Assembly (NCBI GenBank): GCA_030145385.1
Contig: JAQYVU010000002.1
Location: 1-64,000, forward strand
Source: Desulfococcaceae bacterium
GTDB lineage: Bacteria > Desulfobacterota > Desulfobacteria > Desulfobacterales > Desulfosalsimonadaceae
DNA: 64,000 nucleotides
Direction: 5' to 3'
Positions within the stretch are counted from its first letter, which is position 1, and every line of letters starts with the position of its first letter. This document shows, one piece after another, positions 6,111-25,832 of the stretch. The position numbers and the translations under genes were made by a program. The notes under the pieces were generated by a model that was not told the DNA's origin, searched no databases, and was given only the letters and a program-made list of their open reading frames with translations.

Positions 6111-7604
6111 ATGTCCGGCATTATATTAATCATTGATCATGATATGGAACTTGCGCAAGCACTGGCTGTTTATCTTGAACGCCAGAAATTTGAAGTTCGT
6201 CTGGCCGATTCCGCCAAAAACGCTCTGGACATCATCAAGCACCTGAACCCCGCAATCATCCTTGCAGACCCCAATGGTCCGGCCTTCCCGGATTTTGACG
6301 TTTTACGACAGATCAAATCGCTTAAACCGCACAGCCGGCTGATCATCTATTCCATGCCGGATGTTCTCGAAAAGACCATGGATTTCTTTCAAACCGATGC
6401 CTCAGACTATATCAAAAAACCGGTCAGCAGCATTGAACTGGATCTTTGCCTGAAAAAAGCAAAAAAATGGCTGGCTATGGAAGAAAAACTTGAAAACAAT
6501 TCCAGGGAAATTAAAGACCTGAAAAACGCCCAGGCACTTTTACAGCAGCTCTTTGATGAAGTGCCCTGCTATATCACCGTTCAGGATAAAAATTACAGGA
6601 TCACGGCGACAAACCGCCTGTTTAAACGGGATTTTGGTCATGAAATCGGGGAATTTTGTTATAAGATTTATAAACACCGAAGCGCCCCCTGCACTGACTG
6701 CCCGGTTGCGGCAACATTTAAAGACGGACGGCGTCACCAGACGGAAGAGGTTGTGACATCAAAATCCGGTGAACAATATCATGTGCTGACATGGACAGCC
6801 CCCATACGAAATGAAGCCAACCAGATTACCCAGGTCATGGAAATGGCAACAAACATTACGCAAATCAGGCAATTACAGGACCACCTGACATCCCTGGGGC
6901 TGATGCTGGGGTCCATGTCCCATGGCATCAAGGGGATGCTGACCGCTCTTGACGGCGGGATTTACCTGATGGAAACCGGTATTAAACGCCAGGATCCGGA
7001 AAGGACCAGCCGGGCATTTGAGCAGGTGCGCGAAATGGTCGAGCGCATCCGTAAAATGGTTTTAGACATTCTTTATTTTACTAAATCCCGGAAACTTGAA
7101 TACCAGGAAATAGACCTACAGGAACTGGTCCGGTCAATTACTGAAATTATAAAACCCTCTGCATCGCGTCATGGCATTGAATTTGATATTTCAAGCCCCC
7201 CATTTCCCCTATGCATTGAGGTTGACCCGGACTGGTTTCGATCCGCGCTGGTCAATTTTCTGGAAAATGCCGTGGATGCCTGTTCGTCAGACACAGCCAA
7301 AGATCCGCATTACATCAAATTTAATATATATTTAAAAGGCAGTGATCATGTCTGTTTTGAAATCAGGGACAACGGCATGGGCATGGATCAGGAAACAAGA
7401 GAAAAAATGTTTACCCTGTTTTTTTCATCCAAGGGTTCGAAAGGTACCGGACTGGGGCTGTTTATCTCCAATCACGTGATCCGTCAGCATGGCGGCACCC
7501 TTGTGGTTGAATCCGAGGTGAAAACCGGATCCCGGTTTGAAATATGTATTCCCCAAACACGTGCGGCAATAAAAATTAATACAGAACTCCATCTGATCTC
7601 TTAA
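6111..7604 (+). CDS. Hybrid sensor kinase: receiver-PAS-HisKA-HATPase
   Basis: 497 residues. Receiver domain 1-118 with D53, then a linker and a PAS domain (about 145-250) with cysteines C183, C194 and C197. The phosphoacceptor helix has H271 in the unusual box SMSHGIKGML, and a HATPase ends with NAVDAC, DNGMGMD and GTGLGLF motifs. No transmembrane helix is present, so it is cytoplasmic. The ATG lies one base after the receiver-gene stop. It shares its PAS cysteine spacing and H-box with the kinase at 47130-48209. The cysteines could sense redox state or hold a metal; that is inference. Confidence 0.88.
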   Translation: MSGIILIIDHDMELAQALAVYLERQKFEVRLADSAKNALDIIKHLNPAIILADPNGPAFPDFDVLRQIKSLKPHSRLIIYSMPDVLEKTMDFFQTDASDYIKKPVSSIELDLCLKKAKKWLAMEEKLENNSREIKDLKNAQALLQQLFDEVPCYITVQDKNYRITATNRLFKRDFGHEIGEFCYKIYKHRSAPCTDCPVAATFKDGRRHQTEEVVTSKSGEQYHVLTWTAPIRNEANQITQVMEMATNITQIRQLQDHLTSLGLMLGSMSHGIKGMLTALDGGIYLMETGIKRQDPERTSRAFEQVREMVERIRKMVLDILYFTKSRKLEYQEIDLQELVRSITEIIKPSASRHGIEFDISSPPFPLCIEVDPDWFRSALVNFLENAVDACSSDTAKDPHYIKFNIYLKGSDHVCFEIRDNGMGMDQETREKMFTLFFSSKGSKGTGLGLFISNHVIRQHGGTLVVESEVKTGSRFEICIPQTRAAIKINTELHLIS

Positions 7605-9900: not shown

Positions 9901-12897
9901 ATGTTGAGTATCTCGGATTTTATAGTTCCAAAGTGGAAACACAGTAAACCGCAAGTTCGTCTGAAAGCGGTTCAGGCGATGGACAAAAATTCAGCGGACT
10001 TGCTCGCAAAAATCGGTAAAATCGATACGGATTCGCGTGTAAGGCTTGCGGCGGTTGAAAAAATAACCGATATGGAATTGTTGAATGATATTTTTTTGAC
10101 CGACCCGGAAGATGTGGTCAGGCAATCCGTGGAAAAACGACTCAATCCGATGGTTCGGGATATGATAGCCGACACCCCTGATGCGGCTGCGCGCGGCAGG
10201 ATTCTGGACCGGCTGGACAATCAGGAGACGCTGATGTGGATCGCCGGGGAAATCAACAATCCGGATATTCGTCTTGAAATACTGGACCGGATCGACAAAC
10301 CGCGTCATCTGTGCGTGATCGCACAAAGCAACTGGGGTATGAAGGCAGGAATGACGGTCGTTGAAAAACTTTCCGACCCCGGACATCTCGAACAGGTGGC
10401 CCGCAAGGGGTCCAACAAAAAAATCAGGAAACTGGCGGAAACCAGGCGCCAGGCCATTCTTGCCGAGTTACATCCCCCCTCTGCTGATGAAATCAGAACA
10501 CAAGAACTCGAAGCACTTTGTCACAAAATGGAAAACCTGATCCAATCGGAACCATCGGATGGATGGGATGCCCAGGCCGCAGAGCTGGAACTGTCCTGGG
10601 AGGCTCTTGACCCGAAAAAGGACCATGAATTACGTTGGCGTTTTGACGCGGCCGGCGAGGCAATCGAACGAGAAAGCATTCGGCTAAAAAAAGAGCGCAC
10701 TGTGCGCGCGGAATGCGAACATCTTTGTGCGTCTATTGAAAAAATGCTGGCCCCGTTCGACGATGATGCAGACCGTTTCAGACAGCTTCAGGAAGACCGC
10801 CGGCAGATCGATCCCACCTGCGTACCGGAGGCGGTTTACCGAACATTTGCGGCGCGGTTTGGTGATGCCGTTGACGCTTATAAACACACACGCGACCGCG
10901 TGTTAAAGGACAGGGAGCTGCATCAGAACCATATCGAGCGTCTCCGGGACTGTTGCGTCAGGATCGAGCAACTGGCTGAAGCGGACGCTCCCGAGGTTGC
11001 CGGATCAAGCGCGCGGCCAGATCAGCGACCCAATCAGCAACCGGATCAACTGATCCAATCCTGTCAGAAAGACTGGCAGGAAGCCTGGTTTGAATCACCT
11101 GAAACCGCCCCCATAAAGCAGCGCTTTGATCGTGCTGTTAAAACCATTGAGCAGAAACAGGCGGCGCACAAAACAGCGGTCGAGCAAAAAAGCCGGGAAC
11201 TGCACGAACGGCTCATTATGCTCTGCGAATCAGTCGAAGAAGCGCAGGCGGCTATAAATCCGTTTGACGCAGAAGCGGATGTAAAAGCGGCCCAACAGGA
11301 ATGGAAAAAAAACAGCCCTCTGCTTCCCGAGGTCGGAAAGGAGCTGTCACCCCGGTTTCAGGACGCCTGCAATCTTTATTTTGAAAAACTGTCGGAATTC
11401 CGGACCAACCGGGACTGGGAAAGATGGGCAAATCTGAATCAGAAGAAAGCCCTTTGTGAAGTGGCCGAAAAACTGGCTGAAGAAGATCCATTGAGCACAA
11501 CGGCCGGAACAGCCAAAAAAATACGGGACATCCAGGCGCGCTGGAAGGAGATCGGTCCGGTATCCAGGAACCAATCAGATGAGATATGGAATCGGTTCAG
11601 AAAAGCGTGCGACCGGGTATTAATCCCCTGCATGGAACTAAAAACAGCGCTGTATAACGAAATAAGGGAACTGGCGGATTCAGAAAACTGGCAGGAGACA
11701 ACCTTGAAAATAAAGGCGGTGCAAAACCTCTGGAAAGAGATCGGACCGCTTCCCCGGGCAATGGAAAAAGATCTGCAACGCTCTTTTCAGGAAACCTGTG
11801 ATCGCTTTTTCACGCGGCAGAGGTCCTTTTATGAACAGCTGGATGAAGAGCGCCGGGAGAATTTAAAGCAGAAGCGCCGGCTCTGCGATGAAGCCGAAGC
11901 CTTGTCCGAATCAGCTGATTTTAAAAGTACCCTTTCCCGGATAAAAGAATTACAGGCCAGCTGGAAAGAGATCGGACCGATTCCCAGGAGTAAGTCAGAC
12001 GCCCTGTGGAAGCGTTTTCGTTCGGCCTGTGATCGTTTTTTTAACCATCTGGACGAGGAAAGGCTTACCAACCTCCGGAAAAAAGAATTGCTTTGCAAGC
12101 AGGTCGAGACGCTTGTCGAATCCATGCCAGACAACACAGAGGACACGGTGGACGCGGAAGACACGGTGAACCCGGATTCAGAGGATAAGGAGAAAATCTC
12201 TAAAATCCGCCGCCGTATCATTGATCTGCAAAAGGAATGGAAAACCATCGGACCGGTTCCAAAAGAATCTGACACTGCGATATGGGATCGTTTTCGAAAA
12301 CCGTGCGACGCGTTTTTCGACCGTTTCGAGGATCATTTCGCCGCAGTACAGAATCAGCTGTCTCAGAATCAGACATTGAAAGAAGAACTGCTGGCCGAGG
12401 CCTTGCAGTTATCCGAATCCACGGAGTGGAAATCCACCAGGACAAGATTGATCGAGCTTCAGGCTGAATGGAAACAAATCGGACCCGCGCCCAGAAAAAG
12501 CAACCAGAAACTCTGGAATGATTTTCGTGCCGCGTGCGACACCTTCTTCAACCGAAGCAAACGGTTTTACGAGGACATGGACCAGCAGCGGACCAGCAAC
12601 CTTAAACAAAAATCAGACATTTGCCTGCACATGGAACTTCTGGCAAAGGTGGTTCTGGACAAATCCGGGATCCAATACGACCCGAACGTTCCCATGGCCG
12701 AGCAGCTCAATATCGCCCTCGACTATAAGGATGAAATCTTCGTGGCCGGTGATTCCCGGGCAACCCGGGAAAAGGCTTCCAGAAAGGTCCAATATCTCCA
12801 GGAACGCTGGAAAGCCATCGGCCCTGTGCCCAAAAAAGATGACAAGGATATCTGGGAGCGTTATCGCAGGGCCTCAAAGATATGCAGTGGGTTTTAA
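9901..12897 (+). CDS. DUF349 repeat protein
   Basis: 998-residue, highly charged, helical cytoplasmic protein. The N-terminus (1-180) reads like degenerate HEAT repeats (VRLKAVQAM, VRLAAVEKI, IRLEILDRI). From about 530 onward there are at least six DUF349 units with the signature W-K-x-I-G-P-x-P-R .. W-x-x-F-R-x-A-C-D-x-F-F. The last unit ends RRASKICSGF and stop instead of the expected RRACDxFF, next to a mobile remnant, so the C-terminus may be truncated or altered. The ATG has AGGGAG five bases upstream. The function of DUF349 is unknown. Confidence 0.85.
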   Translation: MLSISDFIVPKWKHSKPQVRLKAVQAMDKNSADLLAKIGKIDTDSRVRLAAVEKITDMELLNDIFLTDPEDVVRQSVEKRLNPMVRDMIADTPDAAARGRILDRLDNQETLMWIAGEINNPDIRLEILDRIDKPRHLCVIAQSNWGMKAGMTVVEKLSDPGHLEQVARKGSNKKIRKLAETRRQAILAELHPPSADEIRTQELEALCHKMENLIQSEPSDGWDAQAAELELSWEALDPKKDHELRWRFDAAGEAIERESIRLKKERTVRAECEHLCASIEKMLAPFDDDADRFRQLQEDRRQIDPTCVPEAVYRTFAARFGDAVDAYKHTRDRVLKDRELHQNHIERLRDCCVRIEQLAEADAPEVAGSSARPDQRPNQQPDQLIQSCQKDWQEAWFESPETAPIKQRFDRAVKTIEQKQAAHKTAVEQKSRELHERLIMLCESVEEAQAAINPFDAEADVKAAQQEWKKNSPLLPEVGKELSPRFQDACNLYFEKLSEFRTNRDWERWANLNQKKALCEVAEKLAEEDPLSTTAGTAKKIRDIQARWKEIGPVSRNQSDEIWNRFRKACDRVLIPCMELKTALYNEIRELADSENWQETTLKIKAVQNLWKEIGPLPRAMEKDLQRSFQETCDRFFTRQRSFYEQLDEERRENLKQKRRLCDEAEALSESADFKSTLSRIKELQASWKEIGPIPRSKSDALWKRFRSACDRFFNHLDEERLTNLRKKELLCKQVETLVESMPDNTEDTVDAEDTVNPDSEDKEKISKIRRRIIDLQKEWKTIGPVPKESDTAIWDRFRKPCDAFFDRFEDHFAAVQNQLSQNQTLKEELLAEALQLSESTEWKSTRTRLIELQAEWKQIGPAPRKSNQKLWNDFRAACDTFFNRSKRFYEDMDQQRTSNLKQKSDICLHMELLAKVVLDKSGIQYDPNVPMAEQLNIALDYKDEIFVAGDSRATREKASRKVQYLQERWKAIGPVPKKDDKDIWERYRRASKICSGF

Positions 12898-18395: not shown

Positions 18396-19058
18396 TTATT
18401 TCTGTTTTTTTGGCCCGGGTTTCTGAGGCCTCAACCGCCGGTTCAAAAGAAGTTCCACTTTTTCAATAAATGAGGCCTCCCCCAAAGGACGTCCGGTTCG
18501 TTCATGCTTCCTGAACACTTCCATTTCCGCTGCCTGCGCATCAACAGCTAAAAATTGTTTCCAACTCTTGTTGACCATCTCACCCAACGGCTTTGTTTTG
18601 ACAAGGACATCATCTTTGCCTTTTATATGCGCGCCAGCACTGCTCCAGGGCCACTTTTCCGGTTTTTTAACCAAACCTGCCCGGACCGGATTTAATTCCA
18701 CATATCTTGCGCATGTCAAAAGATATTGTTCGTCCATGATAAATGACGAAAACCTGCCTTGCCACAAATGGCCCCGCCATCCCTCACGAAAATTAATACG
18801 TCTTGTATACCTTCGATGCGCCTCTCCAACAGCAAGATTTAAAGCCTCTTTTGCCGATGGTACTGCGATAAGGTGAATATGGTTCGGCATGAGACAATAC
18901 GCCCAGATCTCCACCTGATAACTGTCGCACCATTCCGACATTAATGCCAGGTAGGTCCTGTAATCCTCATCATTAAAAAATGTCTGCTGCCGCCGGTTCC
19001 CCCTCTGCGTCACATGGTGGGGAATTCCCGGCACCACTGCGCGTGCCATTCGTGCCAT
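18396..19058 (-). mobile_element. REP-associated tyrosine transposase (RAYT, Y1/HUH family)
   Basis: 220-residue TnpA_REP-type protein related to IS200/IS605 transposases. HUH motif H60-I-H62 in LMPNHIHLI, catalytic tyrosine candidate Y119 in CARYVELNPVRAGLV, N-terminus ARAVVPGIPHHVTQRGNRRQ. Such proteins nick single-stranded REP hairpins and are usually single-copy. The gene looks intact. REP-like units flank it closely (19068-19113 upstream, 18290-18311 downstream), and related motifs are scattered over 9.3-25.8 kb. Confidence 0.9.
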
Positions 19059-19113: not shown

Positions 19114-19250
19114 AAATCCCGATCTTGTCCCTTGATTTCGGTATATTCAAGTGAATGTGATTGTAAAATTTTTGACTTGATTATTGGAATTAATAACAAT
19201 ATAATCGTATTATAAAAAGTGCTAAATAAAATATTACAATGAGGTTTATT

Positions 19251-19502
19251 ATGAACACTATAACAGCTAATCAATTGAAAACGAAAGGCATATCCGCAAT
19301 TGAAAGTAGCCTTGATAATGATAATGAATTAGTGATTACCGTTCGCGGTAAAAAAAAATTTGTTGTTATGGATATGCAGCATTATAACTATCTTCGAGAG
19401 TGTGAACTCGATGCAGCTTTGCATGAAACAGAAGCTGATTATCAAGCAGGAAAATTTGTTACGGAAAGTGTTGAAAAACATATTAAAAGAGTAACGAAAT
19501 GA
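19251..19502 (+). CDS. Phd/YefM-family antitoxin
   Basis: 83-residue antitoxin of the Phd/YefM type. The N-terminal DNA-binding part MNTITANQLKTKGISAIESS, then VITVRGKKKFVVMDMQHYNY, resembles the usual pattern of this family; a C-terminal toxin-binding tail follows. The ATG at 19251 is chosen over 19239 because GAGG lies six bases before it. It overlaps the toxin gene by four bases (ATGA), a standard coupling. Confidence 0.85.
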   Translation: MNTITANQLKTKGISAIESSLDNDNELVITVRGKKKFVVMDMQHYNYLRECELDAALHETEADYQAGKFVTESVEKHIKRVTK

Positions 19503-19774
19503 CATATAAGGTTATATACACAGATAGTTACATTAAAAGAGCAACAAAATTTTTAAAAAAACATCCAGACCTCATATCTCAATACGGAAAAACGCTCAAA
19601 ATACTGGAAAGAAATCCTGAACACCCTTCTTTAAGGTTGCATCAATTAAAAGGCAGGTTAAAAAAATTACATTCAGTCTCAATCAATATATCTTACCGAA
19701 TTACCTTAGAATTCTATTTCAAAGACAAAGAAATTATTCTTGTAAATGTTGGACATCATGATGATATTTATTAA
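19499..19774 (+). CDS. YafQ/RelE-family mRNA interferase toxin
   Basis: 91 residues. MTYKVIYTDSYIKRATKFLK, LRLHQLKGRLKKLHSVSINI and YRITLEFYF.. ILVNVGHHDDIY match RelE-superfamily toxins of the YafQ/ParE type. The typical C-terminal H-x-x-I/VY motif is present (HDDIY). It overlaps the antitoxin gene and looks intact. AT-rich compared with the energy-metabolism genes. Confidence 0.85.
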   Translation: MTYKVIYTDSYIKRATKFLKKHPDLISQYGKTLKILERNPEHPSLRLHQLKGRLKKLHSVSINISYRITLEFYFKDKEIILVNVGHHDDIY

Positions 19775-19993: not shown

Positions 19994-21520
19994 ATGTCGA
20001 ACGAAGAAAATTTCACATCCTACCGCCCCCAATGGCGCACTGGAATAGGTTTTTTATTCGCTGCCATTGGGTCCGCAGTCGGCCTGGGTAATATCTGGCG
20101 GTTTCCATATATTGCCTACAAAAATGGCGGCGGTGCTTTTTTAATTCCGTATCTGGTAGCCCTTATCACTGCCGGTATCCCAATTCTCATGCTTGAATTT
20201 GCTCTGGGACATCAGAAAAGAGCGTCCGCACCCAAAGCCTTTTCGTTGATTAGCCGCAAATGGGAATGGGTCGGTTGGTGGTCGGTCATTTTTATCATGT
20301 TTGGTATTATGGCGTATTATACAGTAGTGATCGGCTGGTGTTTTAATTATCTTTGTTTTTCATTTGCTCAGTCATGGGGCAGCGACCCCAATACCTATTT
20401 TTTCAATGATTTTCTGCACACCTCATCCGGAGTCTGGGATATAACCGCTCTGAATCCGATAATTCTTGCTGCAGTTGCCCTGATCTGGTTCATTAACTGG
20501 GCGATTACCTATCAGGGCCTGGAAAACGGCATTGAGCGAGCAGTAAAATTCATGATGCCTGTGTTATTTGTTATTACTGCAATTATCGTGGTCTGGTCAG
20601 TATTTCTTGAAGGCGCGGGTGAAGGCATCCGATTATATCTAACACCGGACTTTTCAAAAATTGCCAATGTGGATGTATGGGTGGCTGCCTACGGACAAAT
20701 ATTTTTCTCTTTGTCCCTCGGATTCGGTATTATGATTGCGTATGCTTCGTATCTGCCCAAAGGAGCCAACATATTAAAAAGCAGTATCATTGTTGCCTGT
20801 ACCAATAGTTTTTATGAGATGTTCGCAGGTTTTGGGGTCTTTGCCGTTTTAGGGTATATGGCATTCAAACAGAATATTCCGATCCAGGAAACGGTTACCA
20901 GCGGCATCGGCCTTGCTTTTGTCGCCTATCCCAAGGCCATTTCCATGCTGCCGTTTGGAACTATTTTCGGGATTCTGTTCTTTTTCCTGCTGTGTATTGC
21001 AGGAATTTCCTCTTCGATTTCTATCATCGAAGCATTCACCGCCGCCTTAAATGATAAATTCGCATTACCTCGCAATAAAATGATCACATGGCTGTGCATT
21101 CTCGGATTTGCAGAATCAATTCTTTTTACGACTGATGCCGGACTCTACTGGCTGGATATTGTGGATCACTTTATCAACCATTACGGCCTGATTTCCGTGG
21201 GGATTTTGGAAGCCGTCATTGTGGGCTGGCTGTATAAAACAGATACGCTTAAAGCACATATTCTGAAACAGCTGGGAGAATCCGGTACCCGACACCGGGC
21301 TGTCAGCAAGGCGATCCTGCAGGTATGGGTAATCTGCATTCGCTATATTACTCCGGCAGCTCTTGGGATTGCAATTATCAACAGCCTGATTACTGAATTT
21401 TCAAAACCCTATGAAGGATATCCGGTTTCCGGCATTATCGTACTGGGTGTGGGGTGGCTGCTGGTAACGCATGTTGCGGCTGTTCTTGTTTCGGGGCTGC
21501 CGTGGAAAAGAAACCGGTAA
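19994..21520 (+). CDS. Neurotransmitter:sodium symporter (NSS/SNF) family transporter
   Basis: 508-residue inner-membrane protein with about twelve helices. TM1 has the diagnostic unwound region AAIGSAVGLGNIWRFPYIAY followed by KNGGGAFLIPY, the sodium and substrate site of LeuT-type carriers. Bacterial members import amino acids with sodium. Start ATG 19994 follows GGGG with suitable spacing. It is monocistronic, and REP-like elements lie on both sides. Confidence 0.93.
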   Translation: MSNEENFTSYRPQWRTGIGFLFAAIGSAVGLGNIWRFPYIAYKNGGGAFLIPYLVALITAGIPILMLEFALGHQKRASAPKAFSLISRKWEWVGWWSVIFIMFGIMAYYTVVIGWCFNYLCFSFAQSWGSDPNTYFFNDFLHTSSGVWDITALNPIILAAVALIWFINWAITYQGLENGIERAVKFMMPVLFVITAIIVVWSVFLEGAGEGIRLYLTPDFSKIANVDVWVAAYGQIFFSLSLGFGIMIAYASYLPKGANILKSSIIVACTNSFYEMFAGFGVFAVLGYMAFKQNIPIQETVTSGIGLAFVAYPKAISMLPFGTIFGILFFFLLCIAGISSSISIIEAFTAALNDKFALPRNKMITWLCILGFAESILFTTDAGLYWLDIVDHFINHYGLISVGILEAVIVGWLYKTDTLKAHILKQLGESGTRHRAVSKAILQVWVICIRYITPAALGIAIINSLITEFSKPYEGYPVSGIIVLGVGWLLVTHVAAVLVSGLPWKRNR

Positions 21521-21589
21521 ATGTATAATCCATGATGTGACAGAATAAAAATGAAGCGATTTTTAAGGCGGGCAGAATAACGCGATTTC

Positions 21590-21902
21590 GGGTCGGACCA
21601 AGCTAAATCGGGGGACACCATACCTATTTCATTAACAAATAAGTATGTCCCCCGATTTCATCGCAACATTTCAGAATTATATCGTTATTCAAATTAGTCC
21701 TTTTATAAAGAAAAAATTTTTGATATATGTCTCATTTCGCAATGAGGTGTGTGATAGGGAAATACAATTGATTGGGACGAAATTATTAACAAGACTCAAG
21801 ACCAGACTTGACCCCTTTACTATAATCAATAATCAAGGTTTGCCCCAGGCTTTTAATGGGTGACCCCAGTGCCTAATAAATAGGTATGGTGTCCCCCGAT
21901 TT
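21590..21902. repeat. REP-like cassette bounded by perfect 25-base inverted repeats
   Basis: 21605-21629 and 21878-21902 are perfect reverse complements, with core AAATCGGGGGACACCATACC. The left copy also forms a hairpin with TGTCCCCCGATTT at 21645-21658 and is preceded by GGGTCGGACCA (21590-21600). The 248 bases inside hold no convincing gene. This looks like a BIME-like or MITE-like unit mobilised by a REP transposase. Confidence 0.65.
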
Positions 21903-22001
21903 ATGAAACCTGTTCAATTTGAAGCATTGTATTATAGGGTTTATGCATATAATCACTAATCAAGATGTGACCCCGTTTTTCGGTTTGATGAGGGAGCATT
22001 G

Positions 22002-22163
22002 ATGAAAGTCTGGTCTCTGGAACACGTAGTAGCCGCGTGCGGCGATGCGTCAATAAAAGATCCAAAGGGTGGGCTGATTCAGTGCTCTACTCTACCCAGA
22101 TCTCAAGGTGTCCCCGGATCTAAGATTGTGATTTATCGCCGGAAGGCCTGTTTTGGGGGTTAA
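22002..22163 (+). pseudogene. Orphan 5' gene fragment, MurF-like N-terminus
   Basis: A well-placed ribosome site (GAGGGAG) precedes ATG 22002. The first ~30 codons, MKVWSLEHVVAACGDASIKD then PKGGLIQCST, resemble the N-terminus of MurF-type ligases (W-T/S-L-E-x-V..A..G, then STDSR). After that the frame runs into REP-like sequence (AAGGTGTCCCCGGATC) and stops at 22163. Probably the start of a gene whose remainder was lost. The rest of 21903-22453 holds only REP-like pieces, such as GGATGTCCCCCGATT near 22201. Confidence 0.3.
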
Positions 22164-22453
22164 GGGATTTCTATATTTTTTTCTTGACAATACTTACCAT
22201 GGATGTCCCCCGATTCCGTATGCACTCAAACTCCGACAATGTAGTAGTTCTCATTATCTATCATATAAATAACTCTTTTCATTGGATTTTTTTTGTGATA
22301 AGTATTTCTCGATTAAATGAAGGGTTATGGAAATTTTGATTATACCGCAATTGGCAATTGCAAGCTTAATCAATAATCAAGGTGACCCCATTTACTTCTT
22401 AATAACTTGGACTTTAAAACTTAACATGAGTTAATTTAGAAAGGAATAAATAT

Positions 22454-25400
22454 ATGATTTCTGGGACTAATAGAAGCACTCTCAATGATATCGTATTACA
22501 AGTTCAAGATGGTAGAGTCGTATTATTTATTGGCGCTGGTGCATCATGTTCTGCAGGTGGGCCTACTGGTAAAAAATTAACTCAAATGGTTAAAGATAAT
22601 TTTGAGAATATTGATCAGTCCTTAGAAGACTTTATTGAAGTATGTCAAGATGTAATTGACACACCACCATATTGCCGTAATGATTTAGAAGGTTTTATTA
22701 AATCAAAATTAGACCTGCTCCACCCTTCAAAAGCACATCAAGAATTGGTTAAATATAATTGGGCTTCAATTCTAACTACTAATTTTGATGATTTGATTGA
22801 GGTTTCATATAGATTAGGAACTAAAAGGCTAAAGCCTTGTCAAGTAATTGACAAAGAAAAGTTTTCTGTTACCCCATCAGATCGAAGTAAATTGTACTTA
22901 TTCAAAATTATGGGATCAATGAATGCCGCAGAAAATGACTCAGGAAGTATGGTATTATCGCGATCCGATTACAATAGAGCATTACTGAGAAGAAGAGAAT
23001 ACTTCAAAATTTTGGCAGATTTTGTGAAAAACGGCTCTTTGGTTTTCATTGGTTATAGCTTTGGTGACAGAATAGTTTTTGATGTGATTGATGAACTCAT
23101 CGATATTTATGGGCGAGACAGGCTTCCGTGGAGCTACGCTTTATTTCAAAATTTGGATGAGATGGATAACAAAAAACAAGCAATGTTTTCGAGTAGAAAA
23201 ATAATTCCTGTTGAGTGTAGCTTTGAAGCTTTTTTCCAATTTTTAAGTCAAAATTATAACCAAGCTAAAACAAGAACTTATTCTAAACAAAGAGTTTTAA
23301 GATGTAAAAACAAAGAATTAATTATTAATGATCAAGAATATCGACAATATACTGAGGTTTTCAATATTTTACATGAAGACAATGTTACGCAAGATCCAGG
23401 GGAAAAAGAAAAATTTTATATGGGAGCAAATAAAAGCTGGGGCGCATTTAAAAAAAATTGGGATTTTCAACGTGATTTATATATTTCACCAGAATATTCT
23501 ATAAATCATAATGAATGTTTAAAAGATAGAATCTTTAATGAATTAAACAAAGTTGATATAGATAAAAATAAAGTAATACTGCTAAAAGGGATGGCCGGAA
23601 CTGGAAAAACTACAACTTTAAAAAGAATAGCTTTTGATATTTATAAGAGCGGTGAAGCTGCTGTTATAATGATGAATCAAAACAAAACTACTTTTGACTA
23701 TAAGTTGATTTCAACTTTTATTGAAAACCTTATTAAAGAAAGCAATAAAGGCATTGATGAAGCTAAAAAAAGAACTAATTTAAAATTAGTAATTATCATT
23801 GATAATGCAGCAGCATTAATCCGTCATGTCAATCGATTAAAAGATTACTTAGGGTCAAGAGGACGATCTGTTTTAATAATAGCAGCAGAAAGAACTGGTG
23901 AATGGGATTTAATCTGGAATACTTTCCCTTTTAAAATTTCTAAAAAAAATATTTATACTTTCAACGAAAAATTAAGCAAAAATGAAAAAACGAATATTGT
24001 TAATCATTTCTTTGATCTTGGCTTTATACCTTCAAACGGGTCATTTTGGGATGATATAATCGATTCAAATTATGAAAATTCTTACTTCGCAACAATATAT
24101 TCCTTAGTTCATCCTTCCCGAAAACCGTTGGATGAAATCATAAAAGATCAATATCAAAAACTTACAGACTTGACCCAAAAAGCATATAAACATATATGCT
24201 GCTTTCACCAATTTGACATACCAATTAATCTTGAATTATTAGTGCGATCCTTGAAGTGTTCTTATTCGAAATTTGAAAAGGAAGTAATCTTAAAAGATGC
24301 ATCTAAAGTCATTTTTGATGAAAAAGATGAAATCGGAAATATTTTTTATATGACTCATAATCGTATCATTGCCAAAAAGACAATGGATTTTTTCCATGGA
24401 GACCCAGAATTACAAAAAGAAATTTTTATAGAAATTTTGAATGAAGCTATTTTAAGTAATAGAGTTGAAAGAGAAATTTGTGAAAAACTTTTAATTAACT
24501 ACATTGGACCTAATTCAAAAACCCAATTTTTTACAAAAAATCAACAACGACAAATCTTTAGATGTGTATGTCATAATAATCCTATTAGGAGCCTTTATCA
24601 TCATTGGGGGATTCTAGAATCTGACGATAATGCGTTGCCTGAAGCTGAAAAATTATTGAGTGCTGCTCTTGAGATGCCAAACGATACGATAGATTCTTAT
24701 AGAGGAGAATCAGATCAGAATATTCTTACATCTCTTGGAAGTGTTTATTCTCAACAAGGTTTAGCGTTTGTAAAAAAAAACCTACTTGAAAAAGCCACAG
24801 AATATTTTCAAAAGGCTGAATTCTGTTTCTCTGATGCCAAACATGGTGATTTCCCAAATGTTTATGCATATCATAGCCATGCATATATGTGGTTTCAGCA
24901 AGGAAAAAGTATTAAAGATGAAGCATTACGAATTAGCTATTTTACTAAAAGTATTGAGATATTAGCTTTAGCAAAGGATAATATAAATCAAGAAGACCTC
25001 CAATTAGTTTATGAACTTGAAAATTCGCTTTGGAATGAAATCGGAGATAAAGAAAATATCGAAAAAAACCTTTTAATCTTAAGAGACCGATTTCAAAGTG
25101 CCCAAGGCTACTATCTTAGTACTCAATTTTTATATAATCAAGCTCATCAATCTGAAGGAGAAGAGAGACAAAAAACCACTAAACTTGCGTTACGAAAAAT
25201 TGAAAAAGGTCTCAATTTTTTTCCAAATGATGAACATTGCCTTCGGTTAAAATGTAAGCTTTTAAAAGAGGTGGCTACTACAAATCTAAAGGACTTTTAT
25301 GATTGTTTATTAAAATGGAAAAGTGTTTCAACACTGCCTAGTGCCTGGTTATTATATGAATTGGGGAGGTCTTCATTTATACTAGGATATTATGAACTCT

Positions 25401-25699
25401 CTGAAAAATATTTTCGTGAACTTGAATCAGGTGTAGGGATGGGACATAGATTAAGGTCCCATGGTCGGCATGCAATTTTAGATAATAAAAACAACAAAAA
25501 AGTTTACGAGGGTACAGTTCAAAAAATTCAATCTTTTCGTGAAGGTTATATCCGTTGCAATTCCTTAAGGGACTTAAAATACGACATTCCGTTTAGGCCA
25601 GTTAGCGCAAGTTTCACCCCTTCACCGAATGATATGGTTCAATTTTTTATTAAATTCAACTATCGTGGGGCCTTAGCTGACCAAATAAAAAAGTTATAA
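22454..25699 (+). CDS. SIR2-STAND-TPR protein, probable anti-phage NADase (Avs5-like)
   Basis: 1081 residues. The SIR2-like domain (about 10-265) has GAGAS at 27-31, TTNFDD at 108-113 and VFIGYSFGD near 198-206. A STAND-type P-loop NTPase follows, with Walker A GMAGTGKT (379-386) and Walker B LVIIIDN (D450). Then come a winged/helical region and a helical TPR-like sensor part (about 730-1040). Such proteins sense a phage component through the C-terminus and deplete NAD through SIR2. The usual KxHGS histidine is Met here (KIMGSM, M153). Low GC and flanking REP-like repeats suggest horizontal transfer. AAGGA precedes the start; no partner gene is adjacent. Confidence 0.82.
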   Translation: MISGTNRSTLNDIVLQVQDGRVVLFIGAGASCSAGGPTGKKLTQMVKDNFENIDQSLEDFIEVCQDVIDTPPYCRNDLEGFIKSKLDLLHPSKAHQELVKYNWASILTTNFDDLIEVSYRLGTKRLKPCQVIDKEKFSVTPSDRSKLYLFKIMGSMNAAENDSGSMVLSRSDYNRALLRRREYFKILADFVKNGSLVFIGYSFGDRIVFDVIDELIDIYGRDRLPWSYALFQNLDEMDNKKQAMFSSRKIIPVECSFEAFFQFLSQNYNQAKTRTYSKQRVLRCKNKELIINDQEYRQYTEVFNILHEDNVTQDPGEKEKFYMGANKSWGAFKKNWDFQRDLYISPEYSINHNECLKDRIFNELNKVDIDKNKVILLKGMAGTGKTTTLKRIAFDIYKSGEAAVIMMNQNKTTFDYKLISTFIENLIKESNKGIDEAKKRTNLKLVIIIDNAAALIRHVNRLKDYLGSRGRSVLIIAAERTGEWDLIWNTFPFKISKKNIYTFNEKLSKNEKTNIVNHFFDLGFIPSNGSFWDDIIDSNYENSYFATIYSLVHPSRKPLDEIIKDQYQKLTDLTQKAYKHICCFHQFDIPINLELLVRSLKCSYSKFEKEVILKDASKVIFDEKDEIGNIFYMTHNRIIAKKTMDFFHGDPELQKEIFIEILNEAILSNRVEREICEKLLINYIGPNSKTQFFTKNQQRQIFRCVCHNNPIRSLYHHWGILESDDNALPEAEKLLSAALEMPNDTIDSYRGESDQNILTSLGSVYSQQGLAFVKKNLLEKATEYFQKAEFCFSDAKHGDFPNVYAYHSHAYMWFQQGKSIKDEALRISYFTKSIEILALAKDNINQEDLQLVYELENSLWNEIGDKENIEKNLLILRDRFQSAQGYYLSTQFLYNQAHQSEGEERQKTTKLALRKIEKGLNFFPNDEHCLRLKCKLLKEVATTNLKDFYDCLLKWKSVSTLPSAWLLYELGRSSFILGYYELSEKYFRELESGVGMGHRLRSHGRHAILDNKNNKKVYEGTVQKIQSFREGYIRCNSLRDLKYDIPFRPVSASFTPSPNDMVQFFIKFNYRGALADQIKKL

Positions 25700-25743
25700 T
25701 AACTTGTATCACTTGTTTAGAAAATAGCAGCAACAATATAGTT

Positions 25744-25772
25744 CCGTGGACACTATACTTAATTATTGAACA
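25744..25772 (+). repeat. REP-like unit, third copy
   Basis: GTGGACACTATACTTAATTA then TTGAAC, related to the units at 15092 and 19113. With the cassette at 21590-21902 it brackets the SIR2-STAND gene. Confidence 0.45.
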
Positions 25773-25832
25773 GTGGGATCAAATTTTGATTTTTGATTAT
25801 GCTTACCAATAGAATTAATAATAGAAAAATAC

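Follow-up and report, generated by a model that had tools for sequence, protein, structure and literature searches.

Results and discussion

The locus and the domains of the encoded protein

The DNA analysed, called the window throughout, is a stretch of 64,000 nucleotides (forward strand, positions 1 to 64,000) from contig JAQYVU010000002.1 of the Desulfococcaceae bacterium assembly GCA_030145385.1. On its plus strand, an open reading frame with an ATG start (22454–25699) encodes a protein of 1081 amino acids. This 3.2-kb gene has a GC content of 0.313 and a GC3 of 0.222, compared with 0.42–0.49 in the neighbours tested, and is the lowest-GC 3.2-kb stretch in the window (window mean 0.44, sd 0.037), in keeping with a first-pass annotation which had noted a GC content markedly below that of the surroundings. 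The same annotation had described a SIR2-like domain, a Walker A/B STAND-type NTPase and helical repeats in one protein, and Pfam searches, sequence motifs and AF2 modelling agree on this layout. Specifically, the putative effector is a SIR2 domain (PF13289; 22475–23239, +, residues 8–262) which was aligned with the PDB NADases KomC and ThsA and in which SIR2_2 is matched at residues 105–237 with an E value of 1.4e-20, far over the Pfam cut-off. It is followed by an nSTAND_NTPase5 domain (PF25199; 23519–23923, +, residues about 356–490), matched at residues 358–486 with an E value of 2.5e-18, again far over the cut-off, with the Walker A motif GMAGTGKT at residues 379–386 and the Walker B motif VIIID at 446–450. 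The putative sensor consists of TPR-type helical repeats (24554–25453, +, residues about 701–1000), assigned from the AF2 model and from TPR Pfam matches in relatives. Most of residues 760–960 reached a pLDDT above 70 and formed confident helical repeats, the sole well-predicted part; the models of the whole protein (pLDDT 42.5, 3-sequence input) and of the C-terminus (51.9) were too poor and were therefore left unused outside these residues. Two features had been missed by the first-pass annotation, namely a C-terminal cold-shock-like domain and the replacement of the SIR2 active-site histidine by methionine.

The last 70 residues of the protein (25487–25696, +, residues 1012–1081) were assigned to a cold-shock-like OB domain by hhalign, in which a profile of the clade matched the C-terminal domain of distant family members with 97.4% probability. 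The C-terminal profile of this wider family in turn matches CspA, CspB and UNR at E values of about 1e-6, and PF00313 is matched by 3 of 12 aligned family members (best E 1.6e-8). The C-terminal segment of the window protein on its own gave no significant Pfam match in a single-sequence search, and the C-termini of its orthologues gave weak CSD/CSDE1 matches only. RNA binding in stress responses is common among cold-shock domains.

A variant SIR2 active site

The SIR2 motifs described for Avs5 are GAGxS, TTNxD and HG or NG (PMC12931631). The window protein keeps the first two, as GAGAS and as TTNFDD (22775–22792, +, residues 108–113), the latter being an intact NAD-site motif that is invariant across the intact members of its clade. 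The catalytic histidine of the HG motif, a hallmark of SIR2 NADase effectors, is absent; Met153, which aligned with His146 of KomC in a PDB sequence alignment, stands there instead, followed by Gly154 (22910–22915, +). This Met-Gly pair is present in 4/4 intact orthologues with the window protein counted among them (the alignment shows five such rows, as overlapping loci include the window more than once), and no conserved substitute histidine lies near Met153 in these four proteins. The other SIR2 rows of the alignment carry HG (n = 30), NG (n = 1) or QG (n = 1), with other residues in two poorly matching rows.

In Avs5, HG and NG are about equally frequent, and N153H keeps partial function while N153A and N153Q abolish defence (PMC12931631); in DSR2, the H171A substitution lowers activity (PMC10981675). 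Our search of the literature on SIR2 defence proteins found no report of activity with methionine in place of the catalytic histidine. Methionine at this position predicts weak or no canonical hydrolysis, and since all intact orthologues carry MG and the Avs5 and DSR2 mutants behave as they do, NAD hydrolysis is not to be assumed. The protein had at first been called a probable NADase: the SIR2 fold and most of the NAD-pocket motifs stand, but with methionine for the catalytic histidine in all four intact orthologues the activity itself is doubtful.

A single-gene accessory island

Left of the gene, five congeners are similar to the window up to 21508–21542, just past a conserved transporter gene; on the right, 91% synteny with one congener (G005) starts at 25786, 87 nt past the stop codon. 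The accessory segment between these breakpoints (21543–25786) has the SIR2-STAND gene as its sole long open reading frame, and a check of small ORFs found no partner gene inside it, only small overlapping or unremarkable frames. The gene is missing in 10/10 other genomes of the genus, one of which has a SIR2-only similarity. The initial description of a solitary accessory gene is thus borne out by the loss of synteny on either side of one long ORF.

REP-like elements had been described on both sides of the gene. On the left, a 26-nt arm (21604–21629, +) forms a perfect inverted repeat with a second copy (21878–21903, −), whereas on the right only a degenerate motif was found, GTGGACACTATAC (25746–25758, +), with 2 mismatches. 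The underlying 13-mer, GGGGACACCATAC, has five like copies in the window (15092, 19101, 21611, 21884 and 25746) against 0.94 expected, and 0 shuffles reached 5. Copies lie around a REP-associated tyrosine transposase gene (18396–19058), and the motif is possibly the REP family of this transposase. Only 4 copies of the exact 17-nt REP core occur in the genome at one mismatch, and it is therefore no abundant genome-wide repeat. A low-GC stretch at 19239–19774 encodes a Phd/YefM-like antitoxin and YafQ/RelE-like toxin pair, with matches under the Pfam cut-offs. None of the five loci scanned with Rfam gave a match at the gathering score.

Beyond the same breakpoint, congener G005 instead carries (locus L061 on contig C663, 4859–10773) an integron integrase (460 bits), a gene resembling lexA and a series of minus-strand ORFs that includes a gene for a CAP12/Pycsar TIR protein (6322–7146). 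This region is possibly an integron cassette array with defence cargo. The genome of the window itself has integron integrases that exceed the TIGR02249 cut-off, three in all (contigs C61, C127 and C109) and none of them in the window.

Orthologues and horizontal movement

A profile search of genome contigs gave no matches with a single-sequence query and recovered loci L019–L021 with a two-row alignment as the query. Full-length orthologues share 60% (L029), 57% (L019) and 54% (L020) identity with the window protein. The first, in genome G477 from another class of the phylum, lies next to a DUF4258/MqsA-like pair (11833–12335) in the purD–purE interval, and the gene was not found in the sampled congeners of G477. 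The second lies near a DUF3800 gene in a MAG labelled Planctomycetota and the third adjoins genes that we read as IS21-type in a MAG labelled Omnitrophota; the contigs of these two MAGs are 7–10 kb long, so their phylum labels carry a binning risk. A fifth copy (44% identity), in genome G288 with methylmalonyl-CoA mutase and etf genes as neighbours, is disrupted and split over two contig ends within its SIR2 part (L018/L031 and L004/L030), likely by an insertion.

The five copies form one clade in the tree (support 100/100), within which the G477 copy is closer to the Planctomycetota MAG copy than to that of the window (90/92). No genomic context is shared among the five. A different context for each copy, together with the pairing of the G477 and Planctomycetota copies, is as expected for horizontal transfer. 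Homologues in a conserved, core-genome context had been named at the outset as what would speak against a defence gene, and every orthologue was found at a different site. Scans of viral contigs and phages found no member of this MG clade in phage or viral records.

The wider SIR2-nSTAND5-TPR-cold-shock family

We defined a wider family by the order SIR2_2, nSTAND_NTPase5, TPR array and C-terminal cold-shock domain, to which the window protein belongs. Both SIR2_2 and nSTAND5 are matched by 12/12 full-length members, and significant TPR Pfam matches were obtained in eight of the twelve. Three members are plasmid-borne, in Klebsiella (conjugative), Acinetobacter (mobilizable) and Vibrio (typed non-mobilizable), and further members sit in prophages. 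One relative (L092) lies between a phage gpA gene and a portal gene, beside Abi_2; the P2 gpA–gpQ locus is a defence hotspot, and STAND proteins with SIR2 effectors occur in the P4 hotspot (Rousset et al., PMC9122126). The window protein shares only 17–22% identity with the plasmid and prophage relatives, and its clade only 17–21% with the eight other aligned members, so the argument from context holds by family and not by close kin. The view of the gene as an accessory, mobile SIR2-STAND gene is supported, and its wider family occurs in defence-type settings (plasmids, prophages and the P2 hotspot). We know of no member of exactly this family that has been assayed.

In two members, L033 and L035 (genomes G708 and G244), the Walker A lysine is lost (GYG[VI]TT), while the SIR2 domain has GAGIG and keeps HG; the P-loop of this sub-lineage is reminiscent of the degenerate P-loop of SAMD9.

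Comparison with known systems

The protein had first been proposed to represent a new Avs5-like lineage, and it does share with Avs5 an N-terminal SIR2 domain with GAGxS and TTNxD, a central STAND NTPase, C-terminal helical repeats and a single-gene organisation (PMC12931631). That it is an AVAST type 5 protein with a SIR2 NADase effector is nevertheless very improbable. This effector-STAND-repeat layout and SIR2 fold are common to both, and one of the orthologues has a match to the Avs5 model of PADLOC (E 3.6e-7), but that match covers SIR2 alone; the window protein gave no match to the model at E ≤ 1, and a six-frame scan of the genome with it matched only model positions 98–215, its SIR2 part. 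The NTPase of Avs5 is reported as nSTAND3 and its SIR2 motif as HG or NG (PMC12931631), whereas the window protein has nSTAND5 (PF25199, 66.7 bits; PF20720, the nSTAND3 family, scores 20.4 bits, under its 27.2 cut-off), MG and an additional cold-shock domain. BLASTP found no significant similarity between the window protein and L074, a protein from the same order that does match the Avs5 model (E 6.6e-81); L074 too lacks a PF20720 match, so the NTPase family label alone is not decisive. Membership of Avs5 was rejected on the SIR2-only model match, the different NTPase family, the additional cold-shock domain and the missing BLASTP similarity to L074 taken together, and the Avs5-like label was dropped.

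Similarity to DSR1/DSR2 and ThsA is limited to the homologous SIR2 domain, ThsA being the best PADLOC match (E 6.9e-22). The SIR2-STAND genes of the P2 and P4 hotspots (PMC9122126) have SIR2, STAND and repeats in common with the window gene, and L092 lies in the same gpA–gpQ locus, but the window gene is chromosomal and outside any recognised prophage.

The closest published architecture is the core of SAMD9/SAMD9L, a family found in animals and some bacteria and antiviral in animals, in which a SIR2-like domain, a STAND-like P-loop and TPR precede an OB fold at the C-terminus that most resembles cold-shock proteins (PMC5445408). The window protein has this full core order when set against the published description; the likeness is one of architecture, compared by description. 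It differs in having no AlbA_2/tRNase domain N-terminal of SIR2, which starts near residue 8 (AlbA is also lost in some members of the SAMD9 family; PMC5445408), and in its Walker A motif, where the GGT/S signature of SAMD9 has a glycine and GTGKT keeps the lysine.

Proposed function

Based on genomic context and architecture we infer an anti-phage role, and we propose that the gene probably encodes a single-gene, STAND-type abortive receptor with a variant SIR2 effector, and that this gene travels by itself as cargo. That the window protein senses infection, forms oligomers and acts on NAD is likewise proposed. The TPR array and cold-shock-like domain would sense an infection cue, either a phage protein or RNA/ssDNA via the cold-shock fold. 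The nSTAND5 NTPase would then drive oligomerisation, and the clustered N-terminal SIR2 domains would act on NAD+, halting the infected cell. Given the clade-wide change from histidine to methionine, the SIR2 step might be that of a Met-variant NADase (cf. the NG variant of Avs5) or involve altered NAD chemistry or binding. A bolder, tentative possibility is that the clade represents bacterial proteins with a SAMD9 core whose SIR2 domain, with methionine for histidine, uses NAD+ unlike the known SIR2 NADases and is triggered via a nucleic-acid-sensing cold-shock-like domain; it may then be a Met-variant hydrolase, carry out other NAD chemistry or gate oligomerisation by NAD or ADP-ribose.

The SIR2 domain could instead be catalytically dead and now serve as a regulatory module for NAD/ADP-ribose binding or oligomerisation, with defence or toxicity arising at a different step or through a partner encoded elsewhere. 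The uniform HG-to-MG change with no replacement histidine nearby argues for this, as does the SIR2-like domain of SAMD9, which is not its known catalytic effector (PMC12331169). We consider it rather unlikely: SIR2 is among the best-conserved parts of the orthologues (58–66% identity to the window protein) with GAGAS and TTNFDD kept, no other effector domain was recognised and no neighbouring gene is common to the orthologues. It is improbable that the protein is a house-keeping or stress-signalling STAND regulator unconnected with phage, to which the frequent RNA binding of cold-shock domains in stress responses would point, as the gene is rare, patchy, horizontally spread, low in GC and at another locus in each genome, and its relatives occur on prophages and plasmids, one of them at a known defence hotspot.

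If the proposed abortive receptor is right, the protein would offer a compact bacterial counterpart to the SAMD9 core architecture, so that sensing, switching and the role of SIR2 become testable in a laboratory strain, and a naturally occurring case for asking whether immunity can do without the catalytic histidine of SIR2. Defence catalogues, as represented by the PADLOC models tested, recognise this SIR2-STAND lineage mainly via its SIR2 domain.
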